From: Strigomonas culicis
Lineage: Eukaryota; Euglenozoa; Kinetoplastea; Trypanosomatida; Trypanosomatidae
DNA: 38,165 bases
Direction: 5' to 3'
Assembly: GCA_000482145.1 (NCBI GenBank)
Contig: AUXH01000126.1
Coordinates: forward strand, 1 to 38,165
Part shown: positions 3,609 to 4,481 of the stretch, piece by piece
Layout of the letters: each line of letters begins with the position of its first letter
Numbering within the stretch: the stretch's first letter is position 1
Position numbers and translations under genes: made by a program
The notes under the pieces: model-generated
Seen by the model: only the letters and a program-made list of their open reading frames with translations
The model's database searches: none
What the model was told of the DNA's origin: nothing

Positions 3609-4481
3609 TCAGAATTCGAGGGGCACGGCAATTCTGCCGTGCTCGGCAAACGGATCCGAAATCAGCGTCTTTATCACTTGCACACTACCATCTTCAGCGT
3701 GCGCAGAAAAGTACAGAAAACACTTCTCCTTTTCGAAAAAGAGCCCTGAAGGTCTCACGTGATGCAGGGGTGCCGTGTTCTTATTCAAAGCCAAGCATGA
3801 ACCGTCAACGATAACCTTGGTGTCTATCACTGCCATGGAAGAAGGATCAAACACAAATGATAGAATGGATTTGGATCCCGTAGCTCGATTGCTGGCTGCC
3901 TGTGCGATACACCCAATCTGACCCGACGTGAGCAGCCACGTTTGATACACGAACCCGTTCTCCCCCAGGAACGCTGCCTTGTCAATCGGCACCGCTGTCT
4001 TGTAGGCATCCACCGTCAAGTGCACTATATTGTCCACCGAAAAGAAGCTAGTCGAATCAACGCCAGCGACAAAGGCGCCAACGCGATTATCAGCGAGCAG
4101 CGTGAAGTTCGCCTCTATCTTGTCAGGGGTTGCCGTGTAGTACACGATGCGCTCCGCGTCACCCTTGTACACGTCGTGGTAGTAGTTTGATCGGTGGCCA
4201 ACATCCATGATCACCCGCCGTCCCGAAAAAAACAAGTCCTTCCCGATCTTCATGACCTGGGGCTCCTCCAGTTCATAATTCATACGCTCTGGTACCATGC
4301 TGAAGGTATTCTCGGGCACTTGCTCGAAAAGTCGAACCACGGACTGATGTCCTGCCTTGTCTGTCTTCAGCTGCGCGTATATAAATGTCTTGTTTGCTAC
4401 GCTAAAGGGAGAAGAACAAGTGACTACACGAAGGTCGTCACGGACACCTATAAAGGAAACAAAGGCAGTATTGCTCTCCAT
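3609..4481 (-). CDS. Divergent GH130/GT108-like paralogue, probable pseudoenzyme (array copy 2)
   Basis: The 290-residue protein is clearly a paralogue of its neighbours: it keeps LLTSGQIGCIA against LLTSGKVGCIA, VRLFE, SMVPERM and a C-terminal DPFAEHGRI. It lacks much of the catalytic core. The acid motif is LEEPQ (Glu73 in place of Asp), MKDIR is replaced by KIEANF, the His of CIAHYSY is Gln, and the DCAFTSGI and DGKCDLYSGLGD-HEGRI segments are unrecognisable. The gene is intact and in frame, so it looks maintained. A scaffold, lectin-like or regulatory role beside the active copies is inference. The frame runs upstream to 4619 through a Leu/Phe-rich stretch, but the likely splice acceptor at 4503-4504 excludes it, so I start at the ATG at 4481. 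Confidence 0.85.
   Translation of the reverse strand: MESNTAFVSFIGVRDDLRVVTCSSPFSVANKTFIYAQLKTDKAGHQSVVRLFEQVPENTFSMVPERMNYELEEPQVMKIGKDLFFSGRRVIMDVGHRSNYYHDVYKGDAERIVYYTATPDKIEANFTLLADNRVGAFVAGVDSTSFFSVDNIVHLTVDAYKTAVPIDKAAFLGENGFVYQTWLLTSGQIGCIAQAASNRATGSKSILSFVFDPSSMAVIDTKVIVDGSCLALNKNTAPLHHVRPSGLFFEKEKCFLYFSAHAEDGSVQVIKTLISDPFAEHGRIAVPLEF

Follow-up and report, generated by a model that had tools for sequence, protein, structure and literature searches.

The 38,165-nucleotide contig AUXH01000126.1 of Strigomonas culicis (assembly GCA_000482145.1; the whole contig is hereafter the window) carries six minus-strand genes, W1 to W6, which were recovered by a profile search with Pfam PF08950/DUF1861, the GT108 mannosyltransferase/phosphorylase family. 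We analyzed the second of them, W2 or copy 2, and put a probability of about 0.7 on its being a retained GT108 (DUF1861/MTP) pseudoenzyme whose fold is under selection and which most likely acts through contact with a partner protein. Judged from its sequence, it appears to belong to a conserved lineage of pseudoenzymes within a known family, and its role is putative. S. culicis, a trypanosomatid within Strigomonadinae, is an insect parasite keeping a bacterial symbiont. GT108 enzymes both make and break down the same beta-1,2-mannan, and to our knowledge the way in which the build or degrade direction is set is an open question.

Frame, fold and loss of catalytic motifs

The features of copy 2 referred to below are as follows.

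3609..4481, minus strand: copy 2 (W2), putative pseudo-GT108 coding sequence of 290 amino acids plus stop; open frame with a PF08950 match
4503..4531, minus strand: probable trans-splicing signal, with T13 at 4519-4531 and AG at 4503-4504
4263..4265, minus strand: codon of Glu73, aligned with the catalytic Asp of EDP; Ala in the orthologue P0003
3900..3902, minus strand: codon of Gln194, where CIAH/CISH has a near-invariant His (present in 120 of the 121 other members); the orthologue likewise has Gln
4107..4121, minus strand: KIEAN aligned with xMKDIR; the Lys is deleted and Asn stands in for Arg, as in the orthologue
3660..3734, minus strand: diverged counterpart of DGKCDLYSG...HEGR in alignments, with a 4-residue insertion

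Copy 2 scored 116.2 bits against PF08950 (curated cutoff 28; siblings 395-401 bits), and, apart from P0003, the family members listed are 27-34% identical to it. The first-pass annotation had described its frame as full length and free of stops; the 290 codons indeed contain no internal stop, but the frame is full length for the propeller domain only, since copy 2 and P0003 (295 amino acids) start 12 to 30 residues after the five other window copies (317-329 amino acids). The splice signal was rightly called good: a T13 run is followed 14 bases on by an AG that lies 21 bases before the ATG. Codon choice is gene-like, with a GC content at third codon positions of 0.60. The predicted fold is a five-bladed beta-propeller, as expected of GT108, with a predicted local distance difference test score (pLDDT) of 91.4.

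Three of the four motif losses noted earlier were borne out by alignment: Glu73 replaces the EDP Asp, Gln194 replaces the CIAH/CISH His, and MKDIR is reduced to I-EAN by deletion of one residue. The Asp expected of an active GT108 enzyme is present in 121 of 121 other members, and it is the residue that differs between the PDB entries 6q4x and 6q4z, the latter entitled 'inactive variant (D94N) of MPT-2'. The DGKCDLYSG...HEGR segment, which had been thought absent, is present in diverged form (EKCFLYFSA...GSVQVIK); because its KC-LY core is retained in both copy 2 and the orthologue, the C-terminal motif is better regarded as diverged than as missing.

These losses form part of a wider erosion. 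We aligned 117 homologues with the six window copies (123 rows, after dropping two W2 duplicates and three synthetic constructs) and defined 61 near-invariant columns, in which, once W2 and P0003 are set aside, at least 97% of the remaining 121 rows hold one residue. W2 has lost 32 of the 61 and P0003 31, against a median of 0 for the 121 others, of which the next-highest are P0075, a truncated record (15), and P0067 (6). Both W2 and P0003 kept 27 columns, both lost 29, and 5 were lost in one only. The charged invariants fared worst, with 1 of 12 kept in both proteins compared with 26 of 49 other invariants (Fisher p 0.008). Copy 2 probably has neither transferase, phosphorylase nor GH130-type hydrolase activity.

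The second of these outlying rows, P0067 from Phytomonas sp. EM1, retains the Asp and has changes that include His to Arg, the WGG Trp to Met and the VNQ Asn to Ser; it may represent an independent step toward a pseudoenzyme. Among the public records, P0004, P0055 and P0041 are the 'synthetic construct' entries AncB, AncZ and MTP4, which suggest that ancestors of the GT108 family have been rebuilt by others; one literature search listed no paper on this rebuilding.

Orthologue, constraint and origin

The first-pass annotation had named the lack of an orthologue as one part of what would refute its reading, but one was found. A search of 5.8 billion proteins, in which matches required shared 5-residue words, returned P0003, which is encoded on a 1566-base contig, is 67% identical to W2 over its whole length and shows largely the same losses: it has Ala at the catalytic Asp position and shares with W2 the Gln, the loss of MKDIR and the late start. 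The same search also gave a 199-residue fragment, P0002, that is identical to W2. A second search using W2 and P0003 as a profile, again dependent on shared 5-residue words, gave nothing further at E <= 1e-5, and one scan of viral contigs revealed no relatives of copy 2. Because the family matches comprised the best 120 of 743, further degenerate GT108 clades may exist.

Comparison of the two orthologues points to a constrained frame. Outside the 61 near-invariant columns W2 and P0003 are identical at 152 of 230 positions, and four active orthologue-type pairs, drawn from a set of eight and matched to W2-P0003 roughly by divergence rather than by species, are identical at 149/226, 151/226, 163/225 and 161/224, the first two matching the level of W2-P0003 and the last two exceeding it. 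When neutral evolution was simulated to the observed 68% identity, 29 of 1000 frames stayed stop-free and 971 acquired a stop, and the mean BLOSUM score of the real replacements (0.16) exceeded that of all 1000 simulations (maximum 0.08). The proposal of selection for a non-catalytic job appears sound in so far as motifs were lost while the frame was kept under constraint, as suggested by an orthologue at 67% identity in which the losses largely recur; the job itself stays putative. Two stretches that are well conserved between the orthologues are candidates for a new contact surface.

4134..4220, minus strand: residues 88-116, candidate new contact surface; 83% identical to the orthologue, compared with 62-83% in the eight active pairs
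3960..4046, minus strand: residues 146-174, candidate new contact surface; 90% identical to the orthologue, compared with 54-83% in the eight active pairs

W2 and P0003 form a fully supported clade whose stem measures 3.47 changes per column in a 91-row tree and 3.35 in a 41-row tree (a subset chosen from the 123 rows), although the distance between the two proteins is only about 0.5 changes per column. The best tree groups copy 2 with P0035-type members, a placement that is not firm (support 77/46), and in an approximately unbiased test on the 41 rows none of four forced groupings (W6-type, W5-type, bacterial and other trypanosomatid) was rejected (p 0.25-0.28). At diagnostic residues copy 2 is trypanosomatid-type at 5 of 9 and bacterial-type at 0 of 9, with trypanosomatid-like and other rows divided by hit-list rank rather than by checked taxonomy; these residues speak for descent from within the trypanosomatid set.

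Role of copy 2 and rival explanations

The history that we propose would begin with duplication; rapid divergence, amounting to about 3.4 changes per column along the stem, would then have removed the chemistry, after which selection would have held the propeller about as strongly as in the more divergent active pairs. Copy 2 would most likely work by contacting a partner protein, possibly in the control or scaffolding of the five adjacent active-type copies in the manner of a prozyme. Like the GT108 MTPs of Leishmania (PF08950), copy 2 matches the family profile, lies in a tandem array and is modeled as a five-bladed propeller; it differs from them in that the catalytic Asp and the majority of the charged invariants are gone, and it starts late relative to its window siblings.

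A conserved dead member among five active-type GT108 genes is a natural candidate regulator. Regulation of the active copies is the most concrete hypothesis because of the trypanosomatid prozymes, in which a catalytically dead paralogue of AdoMetDC or of deoxyhypusine synthase shares a genome with the active enzyme (PMC5201418). The allosteric partner suggested in the first-pass annotation would fit this precedent. Copy 2 is likewise an apparently dead paralogue, if its residues are read correctly, and is adjoined by five active-type copies; unlike the prozymes, it belongs to a different enzyme and pathway, and the complex formation and activation known there are putative here. That copy 2 and P0003 add a third 'prozyme' to the trypanosomatid examples, as an inactive GT108 paralogue binding and tuning active mannan synthases/phosphorylases, is a tentative proposal to which we give less than even odds by a wide measure. 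If true, copy 2 would set the balance between synthesis and breakdown of storage mannan, and the known control by dead paralogues in trypanosomatids would extend to carbohydrate storage. Outside Leishmania, a storage function of mannan is only suggested in the accessible portions of reports on Phytomonas (PMC3916237) and Vickermania (PMC7828693). No dead GT108 member was mentioned in the titles or abstract openings of the literature searched, the coverage of which did not extend to the founding paper (Sernee et al. 2019). A mannan-binding scaffold, another of the roles suggested earlier, is disfavoured as far as it would use the family's own sugar pocket, because the charged invariants presumed to line that pocket are lost and are unlike between the two orthologues.

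Several observations weigh against the interpretation of copy 2 as a constrained pseudoenzyme that contacts a partner. It has one orthologue only; outside the invariant columns, conservation is higher in two of the four active pairs than in copy 2 (72% vs 66%); the fraction of conservative replacements (0.376) falls inside the simulated range (maximum 0.416); and the clustering of conserved sites is within chance, an equally conserved 29-residue stretch arising in 1012 of 5000 permutations. The structural model of copy 2 draws on 49 other aligned rows, and P0003 folded alone reached a pLDDT of 33. MTP4, the only GT108 enzyme with a quaternary state listed in the accessible part of PMC8950772, is a monomer, so that a heteromer would be without seen precedent in the family. 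Finally, loss of the known chemistry is compatible with a new chemistry.

This last point leads to the possibility that copy 2 is no pseudoenzyme but a neofunctionalized enzyme, in which the propeller has acquired new catalytic residues for a different chemistry or substrate. The very long stem (3.47 or 3.35 changes per column) followed by constraint would suit such a history, as would the polar residues Glu72, Gln180 and Tyr257, which are retained, and the agreement of the two orthologues on a new residue at 18 of the 29 lost invariant columns, as fixation of a new site would predict. However, the charged former invariants are unlike between the orthologues, agreeing at 6 of 11 columns compared with 12 of 12 in each of the four active pairs, although the latter agreement is in part built in, since those rows belonged to the set from which the invariant columns were picked, a further caution for the pseudoenzyme interpretation. 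Moreover, the segment holding the WGGVNQ and CIAH motifs ranks third lowest of ten for conservation (0.59). We consider a new enzyme unlikely.

Far less probable is a GH130-like conversion to a beta-1,2-mannosidase, in which a phosphorylase that loses its phosphate-binding basic residues becomes a hydrolase. The accessible text of PMC4599007 describes BT3780 and BACOVA_03624, GH130 members without the phosphate-binding residues, as hydrolases, and copy 2 too has lost basic residues and carries a Glu where the Asp would be. Those hydrolases nevertheless keep the Asp, which according to the same text is invariant in GH130 and inactivating when changed (D142N), whereas the aligned EDP position, equated with Asp142 of BT3780 by motif rather than by residue-level structure alignment, is Glu in copy 2 and Ala in P0003; because the hydrolase route keeps the Asp, it does not fit copy 2. 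The MKDIR Lys, which may correspond to Lys199 of BT3780, is deleted in both orthologues. Copy 2 gave no match to the GH130 profile PF04041 at E <= 1 and the whole genome gave none, and no GH130 was among the 8 matches listed when the family profile was compared with PDB sequences. A recent pseudogene that has yet to acquire a stop is equally improbable. The loss of 32 of 61 family-invariant columns and the location in a tandem array, a setting that generates redundant copies, would be natural for one, but the full-length orthologue at 67% identity argues strongly against it, as do the stops in 971 of 1000 neutral simulations at the W2-P0003 divergence and the intact splice signal and codon choice. 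We rejected this explanation on the open frame, the orthologue and the simulation, the frame being neither broken nor unconstrained.

The GT108 array and its surroundings

A protein search of the whole 17.7 Mb assembly with W2 recovered the same six loci and none elsewhere at E <= 0.001, these locus counts being lower bounds. Beyond three weak matches at a single place, each about 20 residues long, the window showed no remnants of further copies. The five active-type copies, assigned by profile, are as follows.

2225..3199, minus strand: W1, active-type GT108 copy; 99.7% identical to S. culicis STCU_03113; 0 of 61 near-invariant columns lost
4824..5789, minus strand: W3, active-type GT108 copy; 0 of 61 columns lost
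6974..7927, minus strand: W4, active-type GT108 copy; 0 of 61 columns lost
8601..9566, minus strand: W5, active-type GT108 copy; 1 of 61 columns lost
11742..12731, minus strand: W6, active-type GT108 copy; 0 of 61 columns lost

W6 is 99.3% identical to S. culicis STCU_04503 over a 281-residue record, and among PDB entries it matches Leishmania MTP1 (6q4w) best. The Angomonas deanei records P0010, P0013 and P0047 are likely counterparts of W1, W6 and W4 (85%, 72% and 80%, respectively). Two protein searches returned no counterpart of copy 2 among the named A. deanei records, where it may have been lost or be unannotated. The C-terminal tail of W3 is longer than in the other copies and ends in ...SSL, resembling what we take to be a weak glycosomal targeting signal. 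At 14282-14507, between the minus-strand genes and a plus-strand gene cluster, the window holds a divergent pair of tRNA-Asn (minus strand) and tRNA-Lys (plus strand) in a strand-switch-like arrangement.
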